In this document: positions 2,740 to 43,090 of the stretch, piece by piece
Layout of the letters: each line of letters starts with the position of its first letter
Position numbering within the stretch: the first letter of the stretch is position 1
IMG/VR virus record: IMGVR_UViG_3300044956_000700
Span: 1-50,560 of that record
DNA: 50,560 nt
Strand: one strand, 5' to 3'
Origin: a virus
Program-made: the position numbers and the translations under genes
The notes under the pieces: model-generated
What the model was told of the DNA's origin: nothing
Seen by the model: the letters and a program-made list of their open reading frames with translations, nothing else
Databases searched by the model: none

Positions 2740-3366
2740 TTAATATGTTTTGCTGGCCAATACTATTTGACAAATATGTTCAAGGCGTTCTATATGTTCA
2801 AACGCTCGCCAAGGTGTTTCATCTACAGCTACTACACCGTGTCTATCCATACCAATTATATTATATTTTATACTTCCATCAACTGAATTATATCCTATGT
2901 TTTTAATACATGCATCAGCCAGTTCTTGCGTAATAGGAGGAATTAATGGAACAGAAGATCCAACACTAGTATATCTTGACAATTCTGGAAATTCCGCCAT
3001 AAGAGAGGGTAAACTTAATTGCTTATACATTGCTGCCACAGTGTAAGTTGGATGCAGATGTAAAACAACTCTAACTTCTGTGTTTATTTGTTTCTGTAGA
3101 CCAAAATGCATAGGCAATTCACCACTTGGGTTAAGTCCATCACTGATATCATTTTTTATAGTAGTTTTAATATAATCGTCTTTACAATCATGTAAAATTT
3201 GTATTTTTTTAAACATATCATACTGCATTTTTTGCTTTCTAATACCTGTTGGTGTTATGTAAAAATAATTACGATCATAATGGCGTATACTTAGATTACC
3301 ATCACGACTGGTAATCCAATTGCGTTTATACGCTTCAAATAAAACATCGCAACAGGTTTCTAACAT
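2740..3366 (-). CDS. Class II aldolase/adducin family protein
   Basis: A 208-aa protein, the usual length for the fuculose-phosphate aldolase/MtnB family. GNLSIR (23-28), ITPTGI (37-42), SGELPMH with E83, HLHP with zinc ligands H103 and H105, and MDRHGV with H176 give a complete Zn site plus the catalytic glutamate. These enzymes cleave or dehydrate phosphorylated sugars such as fuculose-1-P, ribulose-5-P or methylthioribulose-1-P; the substrate cannot be read from the sequence. It stands alone with a late promoter (3454-3461), so it looks like an auxiliary metabolic gene expressed late. Its start has no strong SD. Confidence 0.85.
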   Translation of the reverse strand: MLETCCDVLFEAYKRNWITSRDGNLSIRHYDRNYFYITPTGIRKQKMQYDMFKKIQILHDCKDDYIKTTIKNDISDGLNPSGELPMHFGLQKQINTEVRVVLHLHPTYTVAAMYKQLSLPSLMAEFPELSRYTSVGSSVPLIPPITQELADACIKNIGYNSVDGSIKYNIIGMDRHGVVAVDETPWRAFEHIERLEHICQIVLASKTY

Positions 3367-3829: not shown

Positions 3830-4900
3830 TTATATACTGATATTATTTTGTTGTGGTGGTTTTAAAGTTTTTGGTTGAGGTTCTTGATTCATCGAGATTT
3901 CACTTTGAGTCATATTTTTCTTCATATTCTGAATACTTTTAGGCTCAGATACTGGCTGTTTGGCCTGTTGTTTTATAACTTGTTCATATTCTTGGTCTAT
4001 AGATTTCCATAATCTACCTGCATTGGGATAGACAGTTATTCTAGCGAATCTAATACCAAAATCATTACGATCTGGACTAAATCTTACGGTCATAACAGGA
4101 TCGTATTGATCTCTGGGAGTATTACCGTTACTCCAAACATGTGTGCCTTTTATTATGTATCCATCATTAGTTTTTTCTAATACAGGGTGTCCCTGTAAAA
4201 CTAAGTCTACATTATTAGGACCACTTTGACCACTTTGAAAGTTCTTACCAAATACCATAGCATTTTTTAAATTTATACTTGTAATAAACTTACCATAGGT
4301 CTGACCTCTAGGCATTTCTGTTCCAACAATGGCTCTTAGTTTTTCTACAAAATCTGCTACTTCCGGATCTCTAGCGTGGTTACTGACTCCACCCCATTGT
4401 CCAAACCCCTTAGGGCTATTGCCATCTTTTAAACTTATCCATGCTATTTCAGTGCCTGCTGAATCTACAACAGCAACATCTGCTTTAGCAGTTCCAGGAA
4501 CTTTAGTTACTCCTGCTGCTTGTACAGCGCGTTTACCTACTGTTAATAGTATACTTGCTTTTCCTTTTAGACGCTCTTTTATCGCAGCATCTAGTGCTAT
4601 AATCTGTCCTGCTTCTTTCTCTAGTCCACCACCTTGAGCTTCTGCAGGCTTAATTTTAATAGTTGCACTGTCGTACTTAATTATTTTATTATTTGATGAA
4701 ATTTCTGCGCCTGGTAATATAGATTGTATATCCTGTATGACCTTGAATCGTTGGTTGGCGGGAACTATAACTTTTGTTGTATACCCTGATAGTTTTTTTA
4801 CATCAAATCCTAAAGGTTTTAAATACTGAATAATTTCGTCAGAGTTAGTTTTTTCTAAGATTAAAATTATAGTTTTAGAAAGGAATTCATTTGAACGCAT
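3830..4900 (-). CDS. Putative virion-associated protein with nuclease-like core
   Basis: A 356-aa protein. The N-terminus MRSNEFLSK resembles the short tags at 22043, 24357 and 48862 and, loosely, the T4 capsid-targeting sequence. The middle has KADVAVVDSAGTEIAWISLKDG (139-160; D141, K158) followed by GFGQWGGVSNHAR, a pattern like PD-(D/E)XK or restriction-enzyme folds, although the D/E before K is replaced by Ser. Then come VMTVRFSPDRNDFGIRFARI and a Gln/Lys/Pro-rich disordered tail. The 141-aa protein at 24983-25408 has a similar WTFRFSPDRSG segment. An AATAAATA lies 7 nt before the ATG. A co-injected internal protein or nuclease is plausible but unproven. Confidence 0.6.
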   Translation of the reverse strand: MRSNEFLSKTIILILEKTNSDEIIQYLKPLGFDVKKLSGYTTKVIVPANQRFKVIQDIQSILPGAEISSNNKIIKYDSATIKIKPAEAQGGGLEKEAGQIIALDAAIKERLKGKASILLTVGKRAVQAAGVTKVPGTAKADVAVVDSAGTEIAWISLKDGNSPKGFGQWGGVSNHARDPEVADFVEKLRAIVGTEMPRGQTYGKFITSINLKNAMVFGKNFQSGQSGPNNVDLVLQGHPVLEKTNDGYIIKGTHVWSNGNTPRDQYDPVMTVRFSPDRNDFGIRFARITVYPNAGRLWKSIDQEYEQVIKQQAKQPVSEPKSIQNMKKNMTQSEISMNQEPQPKTLKPPQQNNISI

Positions 4901-4907
4901 AGTCCTT

Positions 4908-4915
4908 TATTTATT
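4908..4915 (-). promoter_or_regulatory. Late promoter-like AATAAATA 7 nt before ATG (4900)
   Basis: It overlaps the stop codon of the bilin reductase gene. The predicted start site leaves a leader of about 2 nt, too short for the nearby AAAGGA to act as an SD. Confidence 0.45.
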
Positions 4916-5579
4916 AAATTTCAGGGAACAAAACCTCCTCTATAAATTTTGAGATTGTAGGCTCTGGGATATCCATAGCGATCATGCTTTTGATTACATG
5001 AGGATTTTGCTTTTGATAATAACAATATCTATTCTGTACCATATGAAAATAAAAACCACAGGTTTGACTATTTCCTACATTAGCAAGATAGTAATCTAAT
5101 GTATTTAAGGCCAAACTACATAGTTTATCTATTTCTTCTATATCCTTAAGATTACCAGCAGCTATCACACTTGCACTGAAAATTTCTTTCGCCCATGTCG
5201 GAAGATCTCTTGGTTTACTCCACTTTATACCACTTACTTTATCCTTAAACCATTCCATCATTTTATGTTCAGAGTCGCCGCCGTTACTAAAATCATGAAA
5301 CGCCCCAGTTATTTTACTTTTGCCGCAAATAGCATCAAACCCCCAAATTGGGCTTGGATCATTACAATGAGGAAATACTGTTGCATGTAAGATATAGATT
5401 CCGTGAGAATCACGTTTATCTACAATTTCTATATGTGCTCTTCTAAACCTTATGCTGCGATATAAGGAATTATACCAATCGTAACTTTGCTCACAACCAG
5501 TGAATTTTTCGCCTGAATCTTGAAATTTATTTTCTATTTGTTGGGCAAGATAACTTATTTTATTCCAAATCTCTGTCAT
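4914..5579 (-). CDS. Ferredoxin-dependent bilin reductase (PcyX/PcyA/PebS family)
   Basis: A 221-aa protein, the size of phage bilin reductases. The core ATVFPHCNDPSPIWGFDAI (66-84) followed by KITGAFHDFS (89-98) matches the family's substrate-pocket strands; D96 aligns with the catalytic Asp of PcyA/PebS. Near the C-terminus, YYQKQNPHVIKSMIAMD and LFPE match the helix with the second conserved Asp (D203). These enzymes take electrons from ferredoxin to reduce biliverdin to coloured bilins. The start codon lies inside the heme oxygenase gene (20-bp overlap), so product and substrate enzymes are coupled. The position equivalent to PcyA His88 is not a His here, as in the four-electron PebS/PcyX types, so phycoerythrobilin is a likely product (inference). 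Confidence 0.85.
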   Translation of the reverse strand: MTEIWNKISYLAQQIENKFQDSGEKFTGCEQSYDWYNSLYRSIRFRRAHIEIVDKRDSHGIYILHATVFPHCNDPSPIWGFDAICGKSKITGAFHDFSNGGDSEHKMMEWFKDKVSGIKWSKPRDLPTWAKEIFSASVIAAGNLKDIEEIDKLCSLALNTLDYYLANVGNSQTCGFYFHMVQNRYCYYQKQNPHVIKSMIAMDIPEPTISKFIEEVLFPEI

Positions 5580-6096
5580 ATTCCCTCATCATTTTGATCG
5601 CCCAATCAAAGGCAATATTAGCCTCATCTGCTAAGTCATCATATAACATACATCTTAAATTTTTCATAAGCTCAGCAGCATTATCAAAATTTAAAGCAAA
5701 ATGTGCTTCATCTATTAGTTTTTTGATTATTTGTCCACCATACATGTCTCCTAAATGCCATGTATATAAATGAGATAAAATTTTATCATTTTTTTCAGAT
5801 AAACTATTTAAATAGTTTATATATTGTAAAGTAGATATTTTTGCATAAATTATATTACTATCTTTATGCATTTGATTTAAATCTTTTTGTAAAAAAGGTA
5901 AACGTTTTATTCCTTTAATATTATGTAATAAACCTAATTTTTCTGCATTTGATTCTAAAACTTCATAAAATAAAATTTTTTGAAAAGTCCAATCTATCCA
6001 TAGTTTTTTAGGCAGACTTTTGTTGAAAACAGCTTTCATAAATTCAGTAGATTCTGCTTGTTTATGTTTTTCCTTTGTTAGATCTCTTAAGGACAT
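5560..6096 (-). CDS. hemO: Heme oxygenase
   Basis: A 178-aa protein, slightly shorter than cyanobacterial HO1. The proximal heme ligand region LRDLTKEKHKQAE has H11, and YTWHLGDMYGGQIIKK (111-126) matches the distal-helix signature LGDLSGGQ. The enzyme opens heme to biliverdin IXalpha, CO and iron using ferredoxin. The stop codon of ClpS lies 2 nt upstream of the ATG, and the gene overlaps the bilin reductase by 20 bp, so clpS, hemO and the reductase form one coupled operon. Neighbouring lysine-rich, low-GC codon use is the same, so it is settled in this genome. Confidence 0.9.
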   Translation of the reverse strand: MSLRDLTKEKHKQAESTEFMKAVFNKSLPKKLWIDWTFQKILFYEVLESNAEKLGLLHNIKGIKRLPFLQKDLNQMHKDSNIIYAKISTLQYINYLNSLSEKNDKILSHLYTWHLGDMYGGQIIKKLIDEAHFALNFDNAAELMKNLRCMLYDDLADEANIAFDWAIKMMREYDRDLE

Positions 6097-6097
6097 A

Positions 6098-6403
6098 TTA
6101 CTCTATCTCTATTTTAGTTTGTAAAGGAAATCCATTAGATCTTGCCAGCATATTAGAATCTTCAGATTTTTGTTCTGCTATTTCATAAGGGAAAATTCCA
6201 ACCACAGCACTTCCTTCATTATGAATTTTCAATGTAATTTCTATTGAGGCAGATTCAGAATGATTAAAAATTGAAATTAAAAGTGCTATTACGAATTCCA
6301 TAGGAGTAGTGTCATCGTTAAATACAATGACCTTATATTTCTTAGGAGGTTTTATACTTCCTAATATTTTAGATTTTCTATCTAATGTTACTTCACTTGT
6401 CAT
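6098..6403 (-). CDS. clpS: ClpS adaptor for N-degron proteolysis
   Basis: A 101-aa protein that matches ClpS along its whole length: PPKKYKVIVFNDDTTPMEFV (26-45), with the NDD-TPMEFV substrate pocket, LKIHNEGSAVVGIFPYEIAE, and SNMLARSNGFPL. ClpS hands proteins with bulky hydrophobic N-termini to ClpAP and blocks other ClpA substrates. I chose the ATG at 6403; a longer frame reads back through a hairpin into hsp20 and is not ClpS-like. TATAAATA lies exactly 5 nt before this ATG, with no SD, so the mRNA would be leaderless. It is first in the clpS-hemO-bilin reductase operon, which suggests targeted host proteolysis alongside heme breakdown. Confidence 0.92.
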   Translation of the reverse strand: MTSEVTLDRKSKILGSIKPPKKYKVIVFNDDTTPMEFVIALLISIFNHSESASIEITLKIHNEGSAVVGIFPYEIAEQKSEDSNMLARSNGFPLQTKIEIE

Positions 6404-6408
6404 ATGAC

Positions 6409-6416
6409 TATTTATA
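6409..6416 (-). promoter_or_regulatory. Late promoter TATAAATA 5 nt before clpS
   Basis: A perfect octamer. The predicted +1 falls on the A of the ATG. Its left part in the minus direction overlaps the hairpin at 6414-6436. Confidence 0.6.
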
Positions 6417-6436
6417 TGGGGGATTATCCCCCATAT
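6414..6436 (-). terminator. Strong hairpin between hsp20 and clpS
   Basis: ATATGGGGG / CCCCCATAT, a 9-bp perfect stem with a 5-nt loop, 5 nt after the hsp20 stop. There is no U-tract, and the 3' arm is shared with the clpS promoter. It may protect the hsp20 3' end or limit read-through. Confidence 0.55.
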
Positions 6437-6440
6437 TTTA

Positions 6441-6878
6441 TCAGTCCTCTTTGATTGTAATAGTTCTAGGTTTAAGAGTATCTGGAACAACACGTTCTAG
6501 ATTTACGGTAAGCACACCATTTTTGATTTTAACTTCGCCTACTTCAATGTATTCTGCCAAGGGCCATGCTCTATTAAAATCTCTAGATGCTAATCCATGA
6601 TGTAAATAACGAACTTCAGTTTCGTTGTTTTCACGATATTTGTTACCCCGAACGATCAAAGTATCTTGATCTACTTCAACTGTTAATTCATCTTTTGAAA
6701 AGCCTGTTACAGCGACTTCAAGTTCATAGGAATTTTCAGCAGTTTTAATAATATTAAATGGAGGGTAGTTAGTGTTTATTTGATTTGCAAATCTTCGCTC
6801 AAAATCAGTAAACAAATTATCAAACCCTAAAAGAGCTCTATTAAGAGCATTTGTGTCTAAACGAATCAATTGTGTCAT
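6441..6878 (-). CDS. hsp20: Small heat-shock protein Hsp20 (IbpA-like)
   Basis: A 145-aa protein. The N-terminus LLGFDNLFTDFERRF resembles IbpA/B. The alpha-crystallin domain spans about 38-130, with ELEVAVTGFSKDELTVEV and GVLTVNLERVVP, and an I-x-I tail motif (ITI) closes the protein. It holds unfolded proteins for refolding by DnaK, whose gene lies directly upstream in this phage. Hsp20 is common in T4-like marine phages. The leader has its own late promoter (6955-6962), a 9-bp hairpin at the predicted RNA 5' end, a small GGCC-AAA-GGCC hairpin, and an AGGAG SD. Confidence 0.93.
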   Translation of the reverse strand: MTQLIRLDTNALNRALLGFDNLFTDFERRFANQINTNYPPFNIIKTAENSYELEVAVTGFSKDELTVEVDQDTLIVRGNKYRENNETEVRYLHHGLASRDFNRAWPLAEYIEVGEVKIKNGVLTVNLERVVPDTLKPRTITIKED

Positions 6879-6992: not shown

Positions 6993-8870
6993 TTAATTTT
7001 TAACCTCTGTATAATCTGCATTTACAACATCATCCTTTTTTTCAGAAGTTTTAGATTGTTTATCTTGTTTGGCCTTAATCGCAGGCATGGCAGAATTGAT
7101 TAAATTCATACTTAATTTTTTGATTTCTTCTATATCACTCCCTGCTTTTGCAGCTTCCAATTTTGCAATCGCATCTTGAATTTCTTTTCGCTGATCTTCT
7201 GTAATATCTGTACCAACTTCTTCAAGATCTTTTTGTACACCATAAATTTGATTATCTGCTTGATTTTTAGCATTGATAAGTTCACGGATTTTATTATCTG
7301 CCTCAGCATTATCCTCTGCTTCTTTAACCATTCTTTGAATTTCTGCTTCACTAAGACCGCTATTGCTTTTAATTGTGATTTTACTTTCTTTTCCTGTTGC
7401 GTTATCTTTGGCAGAAACTTTTAAGATACCATTTGCATCAATATCATATGTAACTTCAATTTGTGGCACGCCCCTGGGTTGCGGATCAATTCCATCTAGA
7501 TTAAACTCACCCAAAAATTTATTGTACACAACTAGATCTCTTTCACCTTGATAAACCTTTATAGTAACTGCAGGTTGATTATCCTGTGCCGTACTAAAGG
7601 TTTCGGAAGCTTTTGTTGGAATAGTTGTATTCTTTTTTATCAATTTTACCATTACACCTCCTTGGGTTTCTATACCTAGGCTAAGAGGTGTTACATCAAG
7701 TAACAGCACATCCTTTCTATCTCCAACTAACACAGCACCCTGTATAGCTGCACCTGCTGCCACAGCTTCATCAGGATTGACATCCTTCCTTGGTATCTTA
7801 CCAAATAATTTCTCAACTGTCTCCTGAACTTTAGGCATACGTGTCATACCGCCTACAAGGATTACCTCATCTATATCAGCGGCAGTTACACCGGCATCCT
7901 TCATAGCGATACGACATGGTTCCATGCTACGCTGAATTAATTCATCAACAAGACTTTCTAGTTTAGCTCTTGTAATAGTAATATTCAAATGTTTAGGACC
8001 ACTGGCATCTGCTGTAACATAAGGTAAGTTTACAGCGGTTTGATTACTATTACTCAATTCAATCTTGGCTTTTTCAGCTGCTTCCTTAAGGCGTTGAAGT
8101 GCCAAAACATCCTTAGTAAGGTCCACACCTTGCTCTTTTTTAAATTCAATTACAAGATGATCCATAATCCGTTGATCAAAATCTTCACCTCCTAAGAACG
8201 TATCACCGTTGGTACTTAGAACTTCGATCTGTTTGTCTCCATCAACATTTGCAATTTCTATAATACTGACATCAAATGTTCCCCCTCCTAGATCATATAC
8301 CGCAATCTTACGATCTTTTTTATCAGTTTTATCAACACCATAAGCCAAAGCAGCGGCAGTGGGTTCGTTAATAATACGAAGAACTTCCAACCCAGCGATG
8401 CGACCAGCATCTTTAGTCGCTTGACGTTGACTATCATTAAAATATGCAGGCACAGTGATGACTGCTTTTGTAACTTCTTGTCCTAAGTAGTCCTCTGCAG
8501 TCTTTTTCATCTTACGCAGGACCTCTGCAGAAATTTGAGGAGGAGCTAATTTTTCATTATTTGCCTTAATCCAAGCATCACCATTTTCTGCTTCGACAAT
8601 GTCATAAGGCATAAGTTTAATATCTTTTTGAACTGCCTCTTCTTTAAATTTACGACCAATAAGGCGTTTAGCTGCATAAATTGTATTTTTTGGATTTGTA
8701 ACTGCTTGGCGCTTGGCTGAGGCTCCTACAAGGATTTCATTCCCGTATGCAATGATACTAGGTGTAGTCCTAGCACCTTCTGAATTTTCAATTACTTTGG
8801 GATTTCCATTTTCTACAACTGCTACGCAACTATTTGTCGTACCTAAATCTATACCAATAACTTTACTCAT
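6993..8870 (-). CDS. dnaK: Full-length Hsp70 chaperone DnaK
   Basis: A 625-aa protein, full bacterial length. It has [13 protein letters not shown] at the N-terminus, [21 protein letters not shown], the [11 protein letters not shown] phosphate loop, [11 protein letters not shown], the linker [12 protein letters not shown], a complete substrate-binding domain, a lid, and a C-terminal tail NADYTEVKN like the EEVKD end of bacterial DnaK. It is an ATP-driven chaperone that works with DnaJ and GrpE, neither of which is in this window, so it presumably uses the host's. The start has AAGGAG 9 nt upstream. The sequence [23 protein letters not shown] looks like beta/gammaproteobacterial DnaK rather than the shorter alphaproteobacterial loop (from memory). 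Complete DnaK in a phage is rare. Confidence 0.97.
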
Positions 8871-8949: not shown

Positions 8950-9222
8950 TTAATCTTTGACATAATTCGCAATTCTATTAAATTTATCAAGATAATTTTC
9001 TTTATAATCACTTGATGATTTGCTGATATCATCATCATCATAAAAAAAATCTTCTTCAATGATACTATATAATGGATGCATTAATTTATTGATGATTTTA
9101 AACGACATTTTTTCTAATATTTTGTCAATAGGTTGATTTGCCTTGAGTGATCTAAGTGCATGATTATATTCGTATTGACGCGAAAGTTCACACCATTCTT
9201 CATATGTCAAATAATTATTCAT
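8950..9222 (-). CDS. Orphan GluTR-dimerisation-domain-like protein
   Basis: A 90-aa protein. Residues 20-52, NHALRSLKANQPIDKILEKM then INKLMHP, have the spacing and residues of the C-terminal dimerisation helices of glutamyl-tRNA reductase (HemA of the C5 pathway; family pattern: ALxxLxxGxxxxxVLExLxxxLTNKLxHxPT). The catalytic and NADPH domains are absent, and an acidic tail EEDFFYDDDD follows. It therefore cannot be an enzyme; it might pair with, stabilise or inhibit host GluTR. The match is by eye and moderate. It lies just before dnaK and near the heme oxygenase genes. Confidence 0.55.
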   Translation of the reverse strand: MNNYLTYEEWCELSRQYEYNHALRSLKANQPIDKILEKMSFKIINKLMHPLYSIIEEDFFYDDDDISKSSSDYKENYLDKFNRIANYVKD

Positions 9223-9225
9223 ATC

Positions 9226-9333
9226 TTAAATCGAACCTAGTAGATAACTTTTCATTATATATCGTTTAAATGTAGCTCTAACCATTTTATGTGATTCGAC
9301 AAGCTTATTATCAAACAGACTAATAGCTAACAT
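9226..9333 (-). CDS. Possible small protein, 35 aa
   Basis: The frame MLAISLFDNK...SYLLGSI starts inside the stop region of the phosphoesterase gene (ATG overlaps its last codons) and ends 4 nt before the next ATG. The tight packing supports translation; there is no SD and no recognised family. Confidence 0.35.
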   Translation of the reverse strand: MLAISLFDNKLVESHKMVRATFKRYIMKSYLLGSI

Positions 9334-10160
9334 ATTTCTATAGTAAAATTAGGATCCCAACCACTATCTAATTCATAACCTTCATATCCCCGTGGATTAC
9401 AAACAATGCGAGTGGATCCTATCATATAGTCAAAAAATTTATGAGTATGTCCATGCGTCCATAACTTAATTTGAGGGTGATCAAGAATGAATTCACTTAA
9501 ATCACTACTGTATGCGCCATTTATATAAAAATCATTTTCATACTTTGGTTTTTTGCTTAATTTACTGGGGGAATGGTGTCCGACTAGAACAAAGTTCTCA
9601 TTTTCTTTATCCTTTAGCACATTTTTAAAATAATTTATCGTTAACTTATGTTCTGCAAAAGTGTCAAGTGGTTGTAACTTACTAAAGTTTTTATTGCTAT
9701 TTCTGATGACTTGATAGTCGTTCATGTTATGTTGAACACTGAATAAGGTAGCAGAATCACAATTATTTAAATCTGTCCAAAGTGTGGCTCCTACAAAATT
9801 TATATCGTTGTAAATAAAATTATGTTTTTCTAAAAAATGTATATTATTATATTTCTCGCATTCTTCTCTAAGATATTCTTGCGCTAAGGGAAATTTTCCA
9901 TGATAATATTCGTGATTTCCAGCTATATAGATTATGTGAAGGAATTCATTACTTACACGCTTTAAAAAATTCCTAAAACGTTTTGTCCTACCACGTTGAG
10001 TATCTAGAACAGGCACAATAGGATCATCTTCATTAAAGTCATGAAGATTTTGCGCGATCATTATATCTCCACCTAAAATTAGGATTTCAGCATTATTTTT
10101 ATTTTGAATGTTACAATCACTTAATTCTAAATGTAGATCGCTTACAATTTGTATTCGCAT
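9327..10160 (-). CDS. Calcineurin-like metallophosphoesterase
   Basis: A 277-aa protein. The metal-binding motifs are in order: SDLHLE (7-12), GGDIM, AGNHEYYHGKF, VGHHSPS and THGHTHKFFDY, followed by NPRGYEGYE. This is the subgroup common in bacteria and phages, often annotated as serine/threonine or nucleotide phosphatases; the substrate is unknown. It forms a tight minus-strand run with the next three upstream genes: the 86-aa gene stops 1 nt before its ATG. Confidence 0.88.
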   Translation of the reverse strand: MRIQIVSDLHLELSDCNIQNKNNAEILILGGDIMIAQNLHDFNEDDPIVPVLDTQRGRTKRFRNFLKRVSNEFLHIIYIAGNHEYYHGKFPLAQEYLREECEKYNNIHFLEKHNFIYNDINFVGATLWTDLNNCDSATLFSVQHNMNDYQVIRNSNKNFSKLQPLDTFAEHKLTINYFKNVLKDKENENFVLVGHHSPSKLSKKPKYENDFYINGAYSSDLSEFILDHPQIKLWTHGHTHKFFDYMIGSTRIVCNPRGYEGYELDSGWDPNFTIEIC

Positions 10161-31486: not shown

Positions 31487-34400
31487 CTAATTCCAAAACT
31501 GAAGTGGCACAGTTCGTTTGGTAGATGGATCTTGTAAATTACCTGATTTACTGGCAATAAATTTATTTATTTTACCTGTTGGGCTAATAGATAAATGAAT
31601 TTCAAAAGTTTCTGAAATTCCAACAACTTCTTTCCTAATTTTACCAGTGGTATTAAAATTAATAAAATTTAAACCAATTTTTTCTAAAGTTTTTATCTGT
31701 CCGAATAGTTTTTCTTCTAGATTACTAATTGAAACAATCTTATCAAAAACTACAATTTTACCAAATTCATCTTTAAATGGCACAGCATATAAGTCACTTG
31801 TTTCAATAAATTTTGGCATCCATCCAATAGTTTCATCTAAAGAGAAAACTTTTAATTTTTCTTTTTCAATGTTAAATTTTTGAGTAAATTTTAAAGAATC
31901 ATTGTCCTTAAATGCTAGTTTTATTACACTTTTTTGTAAATTATCAGCATTTATATTAGTTATAATATCTTTTAGCTTTACAGCAGAATCTATTTTTCCT
32001 CTCTGATCTTGTAAAATTATAGGTCTTAGATCTAAAAAATTTGTCTTTTTAATTATAGATACGGGTTGATTAAAAGGAATATCTAAAACCTTAGAAACAA
32101 CACTTAACTTATCAACATTATGCAGCTTTGAAACTATTGATCTTATAGTAATAAATTGTTTATCTAACAGTGCCTGTCTAGGTGTTTCGAATATCTGTGT
32201 ATAAAAACTGGGAATTTTGGCATTTACTAAATTATCAGCACTGACCCTACTGGAAGGTGTGCGTAAATATTCAACCAATTTAATTTTTTGATCACCATAA
32301 AAACTATTTGAATCAGCCGTAACTTTTAGACCTAATTTAAGGGTGTCTACCGTGAAATTTTTAAAATCGCTACCTTTTATTGCTATAAATTTTTTATCAA
32401 TTACACCGCTGGAAAACACTTCTAATGAATTGAAACCATAAGGTTCTAATTTTGATCTATCAATAAATGATAGAGTGGGTCTTGCAAAATTCTCTGTAAG
32501 TAATGATGTAGTCTTTAAAGAGCCTGCTTTATCAAAAATTATTGGAATTGATTTAATTTGAATATATTGTTTGTCAATATTTCCCAAAACTGGATTTAAA
32601 ACACTGATTAATTTTGTATTAGACTCCTTAAAATTAAAAAATGTAGGCTTATTTGGTAGAATTTCATTAAATGCCAATATTTTGCTAGGTAAAGAAATAC
32701 CATGTCTTATACCCGGAGCTAAAGTCGTATAATAATAAATGCTCTTTGCACTTGTTCCTATAGATGCAGTAAATGCTGTAGATGTATTTTCACTGTCTAT
32801 AAAAAATACAAAATTAGTTTGTGTATTATCTGTTAAATTAGTAGGAGATCTAAGTCCTGTTGTAGTCTTTAAATTATTAACAACAAAATTATTATTATCT
32901 TGAGAAAATACTATTCCGCTTGTAAAACTTTTATTATACCTCAATCCAGGTGCTAATAATTCAACTGCTAGATTTTCTTTAGCAGTTCTAGGAGGAACAA
33001 CGATAGACGAATAAATTGAAGCTGTAGATTCTTGAACTATTTTACCTGTAGTTTTTATAAATTCAGTGTCTATTTCTTTTAATTTCAAAGATGATACAAA
33101 ATAATTTGGTATAGTTACTACACCATCACCTGTTAAAACTATTTTAGATAAAAGTATTTGGGATGATGTAGATGCTAGATTAGAAGAGAAGGTAGAAACT
33201 AATCCTTGATCATTCCATATTAATTGTTCTATCGTTGAAGTTGATCCAAAAAATGCATTTAGAGTGCTGATAGATGGTAGACTGATAGGATTAGGAATAG
33301 TAACACTATCGTTAGTGTATGTGTTTATAGGGTATATTTGATCAAACCCTTGACTATTAATCAATCTAATATGAGTTTTAGAAAAATTAGGCAAAGTATA
33401 ATCATAAGGTAACGAGCCAAAATATAAAACTAGGTTAGGACTTACATTATTGGAAAAATTAATAAAATTATTTTCATTTGTAAACCAGTCTAGGTTAGTT
33501 TGACTGATTAAATTAGTTGCTCTTATTTTAAACGACTGATAATTCCAAACTAATTCACTAGAGGTTGTAATTGTTCTGGTTTTGTCAGGAATTAAATTTA
33601 TAGGACATACAGCGTCGTGTGGATAAACGGTAATTTTTCTGCCAAATTTAATAGGAGATATAAAACTATAATACAGCATTTCCCTAGCAGATACGGGTGA
33701 TATAGTAGTAGAAACACTTGTTTGTGTATAAAAATTTTCAACTAAATTTGTTTTTAACGTATTATTAGAATAAAAATTATCTACCACCCTAGGAATACTT
33801 TGAAATTTTCCTGTAGCTGTGGTAAACGCTATCCCCTTTAGTTTTGCAGTGGACATAGGCTTTATCACATTTAAATTCAAAGGAATTTCAATACCTTTTA
33901 ACCTATTGGCTATAGATAATTTTCCAGGAATAGGCGATAAAGCAAATGCGGTTATACCAATAACTGGTCTATAAGATGTTAGTTGTGATACTGCCAATGT
34001 ATTGGTATTAACTATGCTTAATGAATTAGGCTGTTGATAATTTTGTCCTATGTAGGCCGCTAAAAAATTTAGTGTTTGATCGATAAATGAAAAATTGTTG
34101 CCAACATCAATAGTTACACTACTATTTGTATAACTTATAATAGGATATGTGATTTCAAATTCTGTATTTGTTATAAAAAACTTATTACCTATACTAAATC
34201 CTTGTTTATATTTTGCTATCTTTACAATATTGGCCAATCCGTTATAGGGAATATTTTGAGAAAAGTTTAAGGTAACAATAGTGCTGGTATTGTAAGAAAC
34301 TGTTACTATATGGCTATCATTGATATAAGTTTGAGTAAAATTAGTTTGACTTCTATTAATACCTGAAATAATAACAGGATCTAAAAATATTGTTGAAGTT

Positions 34401-37400
34401 GGATGTGAGATAGTAGAAGTAGATACACTATATGATCTATCTCCTGCGATTTTAGTAAATGCGGTAGCTTTACCAACTTTAATATTATCTATGAAATCTT
34501 TAACCACTATGCTGCTTTTGGACAACACACTGGGCTTTATTACTTCAATGGGATTGGTAAATGAAGTAGATTTAAATTTATCTACAATTAAAACTTGATT
34601 ACTATTTGTTCTATTTGCAAATGTTTCAGTAGATAATTTTCCAAGATAAAACTTATATCTCTCACTCAACATTACATCTTTATATGGAAAGCTCACTGAA
34701 TCAGCAGTAAATGAAGTTAAAGGAAACGTTGCTTCAAATGTTTTTGTACCAATTTCGATTGGTGAAGTAAGCTTGGTTATCGTAGAGAGAGAGAATTCTA
34801 TATAAACTGCACCAGCATTACCTAATGTTGACGGTCCTCCTGCATTGCCTGCATTTCCCCTAAGTGTACTTGTAGAGTTTCCAGGAGTAGATAAATTTCC
34901 AGCGAACAAATTGCCATTACTAATTTGAGCACCTAAGAATCCTGATCCACCACCACCGCCACCCATGGTATTTGATTCAGCATATCCTCCACCAGATCCT
35001 CCCCAATAGCCACCACCACCACCACCACCGTAACTATTGGTCCTTGCATTACCCCCTTGTAATGCTCCTTGATTCCCTGCTGTATTTGCAAAATTCGAAT
35101 CTGCATCAGCACCTGCTGCAACTTGAGTACCTCCACGACCTCTAAATGTTATCAGTCCGTCAAAGAAAGAAACTCCGTCTTGTCCAACTAATCCACCGCC
35201 ACTGCCACCTTGATTATTAGACCCTGCACGACTGGATCCGCCGCCCCCACCACCACCTGCTATAATTACAGCGGAAGCTTGAGATCTAATTGCTGAATTA
35301 AAAATACCACTATATCCACCGCCTCCACCACCATAGCTATTGTCAACCCCATTAGCACTGGCACTACCACCTCCACCAATAGTATTACCTACTCCAACAT
35401 TATAATTACCACCATCACCCACAGTGATATAGATAATAGTTCCTGGAGCTAAATTTAAAACCCCATTGGCGGCGCCGCCCGCCCCGCCAAATGATCCAAA
35501 AACCCATCCCCCAGGACGACCTCCAGCACCACCACCGCCCCATAGATTAACTTTTACAGAACCAGGTATCACTGTGTTAGGGATCACATAGATATACAAT
35601 CCTGGTGTTGTAAATGATACAACGGAGGGGATCCCATCAATTTTTTCGGATACAAGATTTGTTACGTGTCCTTCAATCTTAATAATATCAAAATTTTGAC
35701 CTACAGGCAATATAGCATCGCTCGCCATTAATGTAGCTGTATTACCTAATATAAAGTTAGTATTAATTGTATTTCTATCAAATAGATAGTTAGTTAAGAA
35801 ATCACTGGTGCCGTATACCTTACCTACTGATAAAAACGGACCGTAATATATAATAGAACTGGCAGTTGTATAAGAAATTTGACTAGATGGTAAAACTATA
35901 GGCTCACGGAAATTAATTAATTTTTGTGTTACAAAAGTTTTTGGTACTTCTATAACACCTTTTAAAGCTGAGACCGATTTTTGTAAAAAATTTGTTCCCG
36001 TAGTTTTATTGACGTGTTCTCTTAAGTGAATTACGCTTTTATCTAGATATGATGGTTGTCTAGTAATATGTGTATGCCAATTGGACCATTTGAAATTTAA
36101 TTTAGCAATTGTGTTAGTATCATTGTAAATTAATGTATCAAAGGACCTTAATGAACCAAAATATAATGTTACATCTGAAATATTAGGATAATCTAATGGT
36201 CTGTTAATACTTACACTATCATTGGTAAAGTTTGTTATGGCAAATTGCTGATCATAGCCCGTATTATGAACTACTCTAATATGAGTTGTTCTTGCCTGTA
36301 GTTGTAGATAGTTAGGTAACTGGCCTAGAGATAATTTCAATAAATTACCAGTATCAGGATATGTTTCTAATATTTGTTCTTCTTTAAGATACCATGATAC
36401 CGCAGTAGAAGTTGATATATTTGTTCCAAAAACTTTAAAGGCCAAAGGCTCAAAGGTCAAACTGGTAGTTGTATTCACAGTTCTTGTTCTGTGAGCATCT
36501 GCGTTTTTTTCCGCTCTTAAACTAGTAATGACTCTCACAGGAGTCATTATAAACCTATTAATACTTGAAATATCTTTAACCTGTGTACTATGAATTAACT
36601 TATCAACTTTATAAGTAATTTCAATACCATTTTTTCCAGTAAATGGTATAAAGTCTAGTGCTTTAAGTTTATTAACAATAGAAATATGTAAAGAACTTTC
36701 ATTATTAGTTTTAACAAATGTTTCTCCTGGCCATATTTTAGCGAAATTAAACATAAAACCATTATTTGACAAGATTTTATTTACTAAAAATGAATTTTTG
36801 ACAGTAATACTTTCACTATTAACAGTTAATATAGTTGCAGTAAAATCATAATTATTAAAATCAGTTAATCTAGCAAAATCATAATCATTACTCACAGATA
36901 TTGTTTTGCTAAAGTATAAAGTTACATTACTTGATGTAGAATCAAATGTTTTAAATATATTATCCTCATGAATAAAGTAATTAACAAAAGTACTGGTAGA
37001 TCTGTTTGTACCAGAAATTGAAACAGGATCTGAATAAACAAGTTTAGATGAACTGGTAGAAACCGTAGTCGTAGATAGATAAGTTTTGTCACCTAATAAT
37101 TTAATTTTAGCCTTACCATAATTACCAATTTCAAAATTATTAAATGGTTGTAGATCTCGTAAAATTGTAAAGGTCTTATTTAACTGGCCTGAAGAGGAAG
37201 GTTTTTGATTATTTTCAATAACAGGTGTTTTAAAAGGGTTAATAAATGATATTGAACTATTACCTAAGTAAATTTGATTATAGGATGTAAAAGTTTTTCC
37301 TAAACTAGCTCTATATAATAAATCTGGAAATGGTTGAGGAAAATTTACCGCTATCGTATTTGTTGTAATTGATGCTATAGGAAGTACAATATCAATCATT

Positions 37401-40400
37401 ACATTTTCATTATTATTATCAAATTTATAGCCTTGAATTTTTACAAAATCAAATCCTAATGTTGGATTAATCTTTCCACTTAAATTAAATATCTTTTCAG
37501 TTCCTGTGCTAGTTATTGAACTAATTAAGTTATTTTCATAAATGTAACTTGTTACAAAGGTAGTATTTGAATAAATTCGTCCTAGATCTATTGGGTTATA
37601 GAAAATAGGAATTGTAGCAGTGGTAGTAATATATACTGGATTTTGATAACTAACTGGATCTACAATCTTAGACGTTATAGAAAATTTAAATTCCTTAGGT
37701 ATCTCTATATTATTCCGTAAAACAGTAATATTTTTGTTTAATACATTTTGTATGAATCTAATAGGCTCTCCACGAACCATTATACTCTGTTTAACCTGTC
37801 CTGACGTCTCCTTTATTGATTCAAACCATGACTGACTTATTGTATTTTTCTTTATCTGACCAATTGCGTTACTGTTTGAAAAATTCACACTTGGAATACT
37901 AGTCTGAATACTGCCGTAAAAAACCATAGTTCCACTGACACTTGGAAGATCTCTACCATCAGCGATCGTTATACTATCAATAGTTGATGATACAATATTA
38001 AACTGTTGATCATAACCATTGTTACTATTCACTATTCTAACGGTAGTGCCTAATGGTCTGTAATATTCTGGATTAGATCCTAAATATAAAGTAACTAAAT
38101 TTGTACCTAAAGGTATTATCTCTAAAGTGTTTCTTTCGTTTATATAATAATTAACAAATGTAGAAGTAGAATATGTAATTCCATAAACAGGTAAAGGAAT
38201 AGTACTAAATGTCATCTGTGTCACAGAATTAACACTTAAAACTGACTTACTTGAAAATAAAAATGTATCTTTTAATTTTGGAATAGACAATGTTTTTCCA
38301 ACTTTTGGTATTTCTATACCAAAACTAATCGGTGCTAAACGTTTTATTAGATTGCCTGAAACAAAAGAATTAGAAGTTAGAGTAAATGTAGATCTTATGA
38401 CATTGAAATTTTCACTGACTCCTAAGAAATAAACATCAAATGCAGTGATTGGTTTAAATACAATATGGCTTTTTAGATATACCTTAGTTGATGTAGCACT
38501 TTCAATCTCATAAATTTCTTCAGGATAGGCATTGACTCTATATCTTGGAGGTATACTAGCTCCGTGAAATGTTGATTCAAAGCCTAAGTTGCCTCCAGTT
38601 GTATAATTTATAGGTATTTGAACTCCATTCCAAGTTTGTATTATAGATTGCTCTATATTAAAAGCACAGGCTAAGAATTTAGTAGAACCTGAATATTCTG
38701 CAACAGATAAATTAAATGGTGGAGTGAAATTAGTTGAATATGCTATCTGTCCTACTACAACTCTTGCCTGATAAATTAACCCTCTAAAAAATGGTCTTTG
38801 ACCATCGCCAGAGAAAGTATCATAACGGCGTCCTATGAAAAAATTACTTCCAGCTGATTGAATCCAACCATTGGCAGGTGAAACACTTGATCCATCTTGA
38901 AATCCATCAATATATATTCTAATTTGATTGCCATCAAATTGTCCTGCAACATGATACCATCTTTCTGCGACCAGCGATATATTAGATATAGCATATACCC
39001 AAGTATTCCCATCGTTAAATCCATACCATACCCGTGTTCCCGCAATACCTGGTCCATTTCCAATAGCCAAAGTGAGTGTAATAGGGTCAAACCCTCCCGA
39101 CCACTCTTCGCTCATAATAAAACAACCTTCTGCTATATCTAAATTAATCCATGCTTCAGCAGAAATTGGAGTGCGTGAACTTGGTAATGCACCTATGATA
39201 GTACCAGCGTTAAAACTTATAAACGTATTAGTGCCATTAAACCTAATAGATCTACGATTATTAGGTATTGTTTCTATGTAATTTTTATCTACATATTGTA
39301 TTTTTGCCAATTGCCCTTGACTAGGAATTGTTATAGCAGCATTAAGAGTAAGTTCTGTAGATGACCCCACATAATTAATATTGGTTATCAGCCTGTTATA
39401 GGAAATGAAACCTTGTTCTGTACTTGTAAAACTTGAATAAATTTTACGAGTCATAGGATCTTGTATTCTACTAAACTTTTGAGATTTAAGTTGAGGAATT
39501 TGATCTACATCATTGTAACTAATTGATTCTATCTGACCTTGCCTTGCCCAATAAAAATACATTCCACTTACACTGGGAAATATTCCTATATTCTGTAGGG
39601 TTACACTATCTACTGTGGCAGATATAACTGGATAAACATACTCATAACCTACATTAGGAGCAAATAATTTAATGAACGGTGCTGATGTTCTTTGATAAAT
39701 TGGAAGTTCGTCAAAATATAGAGTAACTAAACTTGATGAAGAATTTGTCGTGTTTAAAATATTTTCTTCATTGTAATACCATCTAATCGCTGTACTGGTA
39801 GTTTCTGTCTTGCCCCAAACATATATTGGAAATGGATCTATTACCGATGTAGATGCTGTAGTTACATTAGTTGTTCTTTGTAGTATTGTTATACCTTGTC
39901 CTTTAACTACAATAGATTGATTTAATTTAGCTACAGGTAAAGATGTTAAAATTCCTGTTACTTTTTGATTGGCTGTTTTTATATTCCCTGCTTGACTGAT
40001 AGTAAAGATATGTTGTCTATCAAATTTAAATTTTTGAGCATTTAAATTAGCAATAGCTAATCTACTGATATTATAATCAGCTCTTGTGCCGCCACTATTT
40101 GTAACAAAATGGCCAAATTGAACTTTTATTTTGTAATCAAATATTTGCCAATCAACGGTAACACTTTGACTATTAGCCAAAATAATAGGTAATGTAACAT
40201 TATATAACGCACTTGCATTTCCATCAACATCATTATAGGCAAACAATTTTACTAAAGAATATGCAGCTACATTTGAAACAGACTTGGTGAAAAGTAAAGT
40301 GGTTGTGTTTGTATTTGTACTTGTATAAGTTGTAACAACATTGTTTTCATTCAAATAATATGAAACAAAACTTGAAGTTGTTTTTATAATTCCGCCAATA

Positions 40401-43042: not shown

Positions 43043-43049
43043 AATTGAA

Positions 43050-43057
43050 TATTTATT
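43050..43057 (-). promoter_or_regulatory. Late promoter-like AATAAATA 7 nt before the giant gene
   Basis: Directly after the terminator U-tract; no SD follows, so the 11.5-kb mRNA is predicted to have a leader of about 2 nt. Confidence 0.5.
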
Positions 43058-43090
43058 GAAAAAAAAACCCGTTATCATAACGGGTTTTTT
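43058..43090 (-). terminator. Bidirectional-looking rho-independent terminator
   Basis: CCCGTT / AACGGG stem (43068-43084) flanked by A-runs and T-runs on both sides; it ends the 43108-46095 transcript in the minus direction. Confidence 0.85.

Follow-up and report, generated by a model that had tools for sequence, protein, structure and literature searches.

A phage gene block joins clpS to heme oxygenase and bilin reductase genes and includes a predicted stand-alone HemA dimerisation-domain homologue

Gene content and organisation of the locus

The window analysed here comprises positions 1 to 50,560 of the virus record IMGVR_UViG_3300044956_000700, a 50.6-kb fragment with a G+C content of 35%. 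Genes for tail fibre, baseplate, exonuclease, DNA polymerase and ribonucleotide reductase were identified, with nearly all genes encoded on the minus strand. One ORF of 3863 aa was located in the structural region (31487-43078, minus strand). In the direction of transcription, the genes at the locus were metallophosphoesterase–90-aa gene–dnaK–hsp20–clpS–hemO–ferredoxin-dependent bilin reductase (FDBR)–unknown protein, as listed in Table 1. The 90-aa gene is located two places upstream of hsp20 and directly upstream of dnaK.

The sequence-only reading of this DNA had described clpS, hemO and the FDBR gene as tightly coupled, and all three were found as described on the minus strand. The reported 20-nt overlap between hemO and the FDBR gene was confirmed, but the reported 2-nt gap between clpS and hemO was not, as the clpS stop codon (6100-6098) and the hemO ATG (6096-6094) are separated by 1 nt. 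A gene encoding a Class II aldolase/adducin-domain protein was found downstream of the cluster (2740-3366, minus strand; PF00596, 5e-26), and L004 and L012 likewise have such a gene close to the cluster.

Table 1. Features of the phage locus, in the order of transcription
Feature	Position	Strand	Evidence
Metallophosphoesterase gene, usually adjoins the HemA-domain gene upstream	9327..10160	-	phrog_1649, 1.7e-50
90-aa predicted stand-alone homologue of the glutamyl-tRNA reductase (HemA) dimerisation domain	8950..9222	-	PF00745, family profile and reverse searches
dnaK, conserved neighbour, nearest to Burkholderiales DnaK	6993..8870	-	PF00012
hsp20, conserved neighbour	6441..6878	-	PF00011, 2.9e-16
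G/C hairpin, hsp20–clpS intergenic region	6414..6436	-	window z -3.29, dinucleotide shuffles
TATAAATA box, T4-late-promoter-like, 5 nt before the clpS ATG	6409..6416	-	position alone
clpS, predicted N-degron adaptor, 101 aa	6098..6403	-	PF02617, 2e-28
hemO, predicted compact heme oxygenase, 178 aa	5560..6096	-	PF01126, 1.5e-16
FDBR gene, 221 aa, PcyX-related, PcyA-type Glu at the product-determining site	4914..5579	-	PF05996, 2.6e-11
Unknown protein, 13 nt downstream of FDBR, same place in several relatives	3830..4900	-	phrog_13937

Identification of ClpS and HemO

The clpS product matched PF02617 with 98 bits (cut-off 23); against the NCBIfam equivalog models it scored 88, below their threshold of 149. 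The pocket residues N29, D30 and H61, which we take to be the equivalents of E. coli N34, D35 and H66, were invariant in 27 phage homologues. By its profile and its N-degron pocket, the protein is predicted to be ClpS. HemO matched PF01126 with 61 bits (cut-off 23). Its proximal histidine H11 and the residues D117-x-x-G120-G121-Q122 were invariant in 27 sequences, in which the first Gly of the GDxxGGQ motif was nearly invariant. The model of HemO (pLDDT 94) resembled solved heme oxygenases with a TM of about 0.86. Profile, modelled fold, proximal His and distal GDxxGG indicate a heme oxygenase of the HO-1 type, with a predicted activity of converting heme to biliverdin.

Family and probable product of the bilin reductase

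The reductase matched PF05996 with 44.1 bits (cut-off 31) and has kept the catalytic residues His88 and Asp105 (PcyA numbering), which were present in 144 of 145 distinct phage sequences; its earlier placement within the FDBR family was thus upheld. Its best matches were PcyX and PcyA, and its best solved relative in the PDB was PcyX 5owg (1e-44). At the alignment position shared by PcyA Glu76 and PcyX Asp55, the window FDBR has the Glu of PcyA (in HIEIVD), yet it clustered with phage FDBRs and apart from cyanobacterial PcyA in a tree computed without a PebS sequence. The plain PcyX or PebS label considered in the sequence-only reading had to be given up, since Glu and not Asp occupies this product-determining site, and the enzyme is not named PcyX here because the PcyX-specific Asp55 is absent.

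The phycocyanobilin product of the CB_2 phage enzyme has been tied to the lack of Asp55 (Wegner 2024, PMC11480375), and Glu76 is necessary for the PcyA-type reduction of the 18-vinyl group (PMC10151467). Structure–function rules for FDBRs are not reliably predictive (PMC13193486). Because of the Glu at the PcyA Glu76 site, we predict with moderate confidence that phycocyanobilin is a more likely product than phycoerythrobilin. No ferredoxin gene was found in 35 phage records, and host ferredoxin is therefore assumed to be the electron source. FDBR had no match in plasmid records.

The residue at the product site was Glu, Asp, Ser, Asn, Gln, His or Cys across phage FDBRs. Tandem overlapping FDBR genes were present in L017 (7312-8669), L072 (7285-8669) and L074 (7310-8666), the first encoding Asp (PcyX type) and the second Glu (PcyA type). 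The natural variation at this site and the tandem FDBRs of unlike type offer a natural panel on which the specificity of bilin reductases could be tested.

The chemistry of FDBR would also suit the supply of a pigment or chromophore, as proposed for cyanophage PebS/PcyA, with the bilin serving host phytochrome or another bilin-binding protein and ClpS being incidental. The PcyA of the related CB_2 phage does fill phytochrome in E. coli (PMC11480375). However, no phycobiliprotein scored above cut-off in 40 phage records, the likely host group is without phycobilisomes, and the product-site residue varies freely, so that we regard pigment supply as improbable. Candidates for a phycobiliprotein-like acceptor were only sub-threshold matches inside giant ORFs and were rejected.

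Transcriptional grouping of clpS with hemO

A strong G/C hairpin was found between hsp20 and clpS in all 102 distinct intergenic regions tested, the sequences of which have widely diverged, and in each region no more than 5 in 100 simple shuffles reached the same stability. clpS and hemO overlapped by 4 nt in 39 of 75 distinct loci. Since the hairpin splits hsp20 from clpS and clpS is tightly coupled to hemO, clpS is best assigned to the hemO unit rather than grouped with hsp20.

The TATAAATA box before the window clpS is exact and follows the hairpin. Among 587 genes of this phage group, 26 of the 38 occurrences of TATAAATA within 60 nt of a start were at 4-7 nt. The total number in the whole window was at chance level and was rejected as evidence of late promoters, so the argument is a positional one. 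T4 late promoters serve as the model for these boxes; if the boxes act in the same way, transcription of clpS would begin at its ATG or right beside it. The sequence-only reading had placed the operon at a late stage of infection. A late promoter is plausible in view of the exact box and the clustering at 4-7 nt before starts, while late timing itself stays presumptive.

Conservation of the gene block in phages

A scan of viral contigs with the single FDBR sequence yielded 38 relatives, and a scan with an alignment yielded at least 551. The block dnaK–hsp20–clpS–hemO–FDBR recurred in the mapped set at 40-69% FDBR identity, with dnaK sometimes absent. Three contigs from bacterial MAGs (L043-L045) also had the cluster; they probably represent phage DNA caught in the bins and were not counted as bacterial. 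clpS was located within 3.5 kb upstream of FDBR in 59 of 128 FDBR genes. Another 37 FDBR genes with room upstream had hemO and no clpS, so clpS is dispensable for the heme-to-bilin chemistry; the remainder were cyanobacterial, incomplete, or without both clpS and hemO.

To escape the bias of the FDBR query, a ClpS-only search was run, covering the nearest 80 of at least 587 loci, with some contigs already in the FDBR set. hsp20 was found in 79/79 new loci and hemO in 74/79; four of the five loci without hemO reach the contig end shortly past clpS, and hemO was present beside clpS in 74 of 75 informative loci. Because both searches led to dozens of diverged phage contigs with one and the same gene order, the arrangement is not due to chance. 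The joining of clpS to a phage heme-to-bilin pathway, which had been considered unusual from the one genome, therefore extends far beyond it in conserved order, and hsp20–dnaK and the HemA-domain gene are members of the conserved block that the earlier reading had not included.

The hairpin, the clpS–hemO overlap and the retention of hemO at all but one of the informative nearest phage clpS loci weigh against two adjoining but unrelated modules. In such an arrangement, ClpS together with DnaK, Hsp20, ClpA and ClpP would form a proteostasis set for virion assembly or host protein clearance, and hemO–FDBR would share the promoter and serve iron, CO or bilin. This remains an unlikely though serious explanation, since hsp20 adjoins clpS in every locus, the 37 FDBR genes described above have hemO without clpS, phage ClpA and ClpP exist, and HSP20 has been suggested as an aid in capsid maturation (PMC7674155).

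Additional genes were found within or beside the cluster in individual phages. A gene for a FabF-like beta-ketoacyl-ACP synthase was located between clpS and hemO in L018 (6252-7484) and L072 (5574-6800), and genes for an alpha/beta hydrolase (L010, 7430-8008) and a carbon-nitrogen hydrolase (L044, 3922-4971) were located between hemO and FDBR. A DUF454 (YbaN-like) membrane protein was encoded beside the FDBR clusters of two distant phages, L018 (4909-5337, minus strand) and L029 (7588-8004), in the latter directly upstream of FDBR in the usual place of hemO.

A stand-alone homologue of the HemA dimerisation domain

The 90-aa protein of the window matched PF00745 with 22.0 bits (2e-4), below the cut-off of 22.9, and because this match was weak the test was extended to the family. 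PF00745 was matched by 21/21 family members (best 1.6e-7), and NCBIfam glutamyl-tRNA reductase (GluTR) models matched 13 of them. A profile–profile comparison of the family with about 33 bacterial GluTRs gave 94.5%, an E of 7e-8 and a score of 52.7, while 40 column shuffles of the same comparison scored at most 17.6. The phage family was also used for a reverse search of 120 whole Pseudomonadota genomes, in which the 35 top-ranking matches all lay within GluTR places, which had been found independently and were compared with the matches by eye.

The likeness to the C-terminal domain of bacterial HemA (PF00745) lies in residues 7-57, which aligned with residues 348-398 of E. coli HemA. As the match spans about 50 residues, the protein corresponds to part of the domain and lacks the enzyme portions. 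In contrast to bacterial HemA, it has no catalytic or NADPH-binding domains, and it has a C-terminal ADHV-type tail of its own; with part of the C-terminal domain only, it was rejected as a glutamyl-tRNA reductase enzyme. Its small helical model, a predicted helical hairpin, gave no significant Foldseek match and no GluTR, and an hmmsearch of the PDB with the family gave no GluTR, so the case for homology rests on the sequence tests, by which the protein is predicted to be a stand-alone homologue of the GluTR dimerisation domain. A viral contig scan with the single 90-aa sequence returned only itself. A HemA-domain gene was also found away from the cluster, in L262 (597-869; record of L081).

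Distribution of AlaS and the HemA domain

Of 85 phage records, 19 had AlaS (TIGR01821) and 25 had the HemA-domain gene, and none had both (Fisher p 0.0005). No AlaS was found in the window, which is a 50.6-kb fragment. In domain-bearing branches, AlaS was present and the domain missing in eight records (L013, L017, L062, L072, L074, L076, L099 and L104), and a few other records had neither. In L013 and L062, alaS lay on the opposite strand, a short way upstream of the metallophosphoesterase gene. The non-co-occurrence is partly shared ancestry: among independent tree pairs differing in the HemA domain, none differed in AlaS in the same direction and about three in the opposite one, and the sign test was not significant. 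As this test is low-powered and many records are fragments, the exclusion is no proof, and the pattern is suggestive of AlaS and the HemA domain being alternatives.

If the two do one job, the finding that AlaS of relatives raises ALA (PMC11480375) runs opposite to a drain or shut-down of heme, in which HemO and FDBR would destroy heme and the free domain would poison HemA dimers, lowering respiration or heme-dependent defence and freeing iron. A late loss of respiration would also cost the phage energy. On the other hand, a dimerisation domain on its own is a textbook form of dominant-negative inhibitor, HemO entails heme consumption, and iron supply has already been proposed for hemO/FDBR genes (PMC11480375). 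Overall, we consider a heme drain quite unlikely.

Clp protease, HemA turnover and host

A ClpA-type unfoldase was encoded in 12 of 36 phage records, all clpS-positive, and ClpP in 16 of 36. The unfoldase, mostly with ClpP, was found in the records of L019, L060, L072, L084, L135, L142, L150, L152, L174, L188, L196 and L202. Three of these ClpA were checked and had ClpA (TIGR02639) as their best match at 1e-260 or better, below the curated cut-off. HemA is a substrate of ClpAP and Lon, and plant GluTR is taken by ClpS (PMC6399207, PMC6597238), with its Clp recognition site at the N-terminus and not in the dimerisation domain (PMC6597238). As a known ClpAP substrate, HemA may plausibly be where the action of ClpS and that of the heme genes converge.

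DnaK was closest to Burkholderiales (67-74%) in a search of plasmid and chromid records, which were used for the host call because several DnaK in phage records look like host sequence. The host is probably betaproteobacterial. Burkholderiales use the C5 pathway with GluTR, as action on HemA would need.

Proposed role of the gene block

We tentatively propose, with somewhat less than even confidence, a late T4-like phage module that acts on host tetrapyrrole flow at its entry (HemA) and its exit (heme to bilin). One late mRNA would give rise to ClpS, HemO and FDBR. HemO would open host heme to biliverdin with release of iron and CO, and FDBR with host ferredoxin would reduce biliverdin to a phytobilin, phycocyanobilin being likelier than phycoerythrobilin. 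ClpS, acting on the ClpA of the host or the phage, would turn ClpAP to N-degron substrates and away from others, by which HemA, with which the heme pathway begins, would be spared, and HemO would take away the heme that sets off HemA breakdown. The 90-aa protein would associate with host HemA and govern how active or how stable that enzyme is, and phages with their own AlaS would manage without the 90-aa protein. Overall, flow through ALA and heme into bilin would be maintained. It is conceivable, if doubtful, that the free dimerisation domain and phage ClpS seize the first committed tetrapyrrole step in substitution for ALA synthase, while HemO/FDBR draw heme off as bilin; glutamyl-tRNA reductase would then be under the control of a viral regulator, the 90-aa protein.

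Heme oxygenases and bilin reductases in phages of non-cyanobacterial hosts have been called enigmatic (PMC11480375). Their conserved association with a protease adaptor and with part of HemA speaks for a role in controlling heme homeostasis and against one in supplying a light-harvesting pigment. Many uncultured aquatic phages share the block, and its combination with the HemA piece suggests that heme metabolism is steered at both ends.

Comparison with known systems

Jumbo phages also carry ClpS, and Atu_ph07 adds ClpA and a Clp proteolytic subunit (PMC7824862, PMC6102473); the accessible parts of these papers describe no heme genes with ClpS. Jumbo-phage ClpS was at most 43% identical to that of the window and occurs in a different setting. 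A phage hemO–pcyX cassette was reportedly described by Ledermann in 2016/2018. The hemO–FDBR(–AlaS) cassette is already published (PcyX; Wegner 2024, PMC11480375), and its hemO–pcyX and hemO–pcyA/X–valaS forms share with the block the adjoining enzymes, the aquatic T4-like phages and, in some relatives, alaS. In contrast to the hemO–pcyA/X–valaS cassette, the conserved block contains clpS and hsp20 and often dnaK, and the window has a GluTR dimerisation-domain gene in place of alaS and an FDBR with a PcyA-like active site.

The term 'Clp' is absent from the main text of Wegner 2024 (PMC11480375). No mention of a clpS linkage to hemO–FDBR or of a phage GluTR domain was found in the openly accessible literature searched, and subscription papers, Ledermann 2016/2018 among them, may show neighbouring genes. 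With respect to the papers searched, the clpS linkage and the stand-alone GluTR-domain gene are new.

Pelagibacter phage Mosig EXVC030M likewise has adjacent, overlapping hemO and FDBR genes, with an FDBR 37% identical to that of the window. It differs in that no clpS lies beside hemO–FDBR and that its FDBR is of the Asp (PcyX) type. In this isolated pelagiphage, a ferrochelatase gene and several 2OG-Fe(II) oxygenase genes precede hemO–FDBR (L040, 4318-8645).
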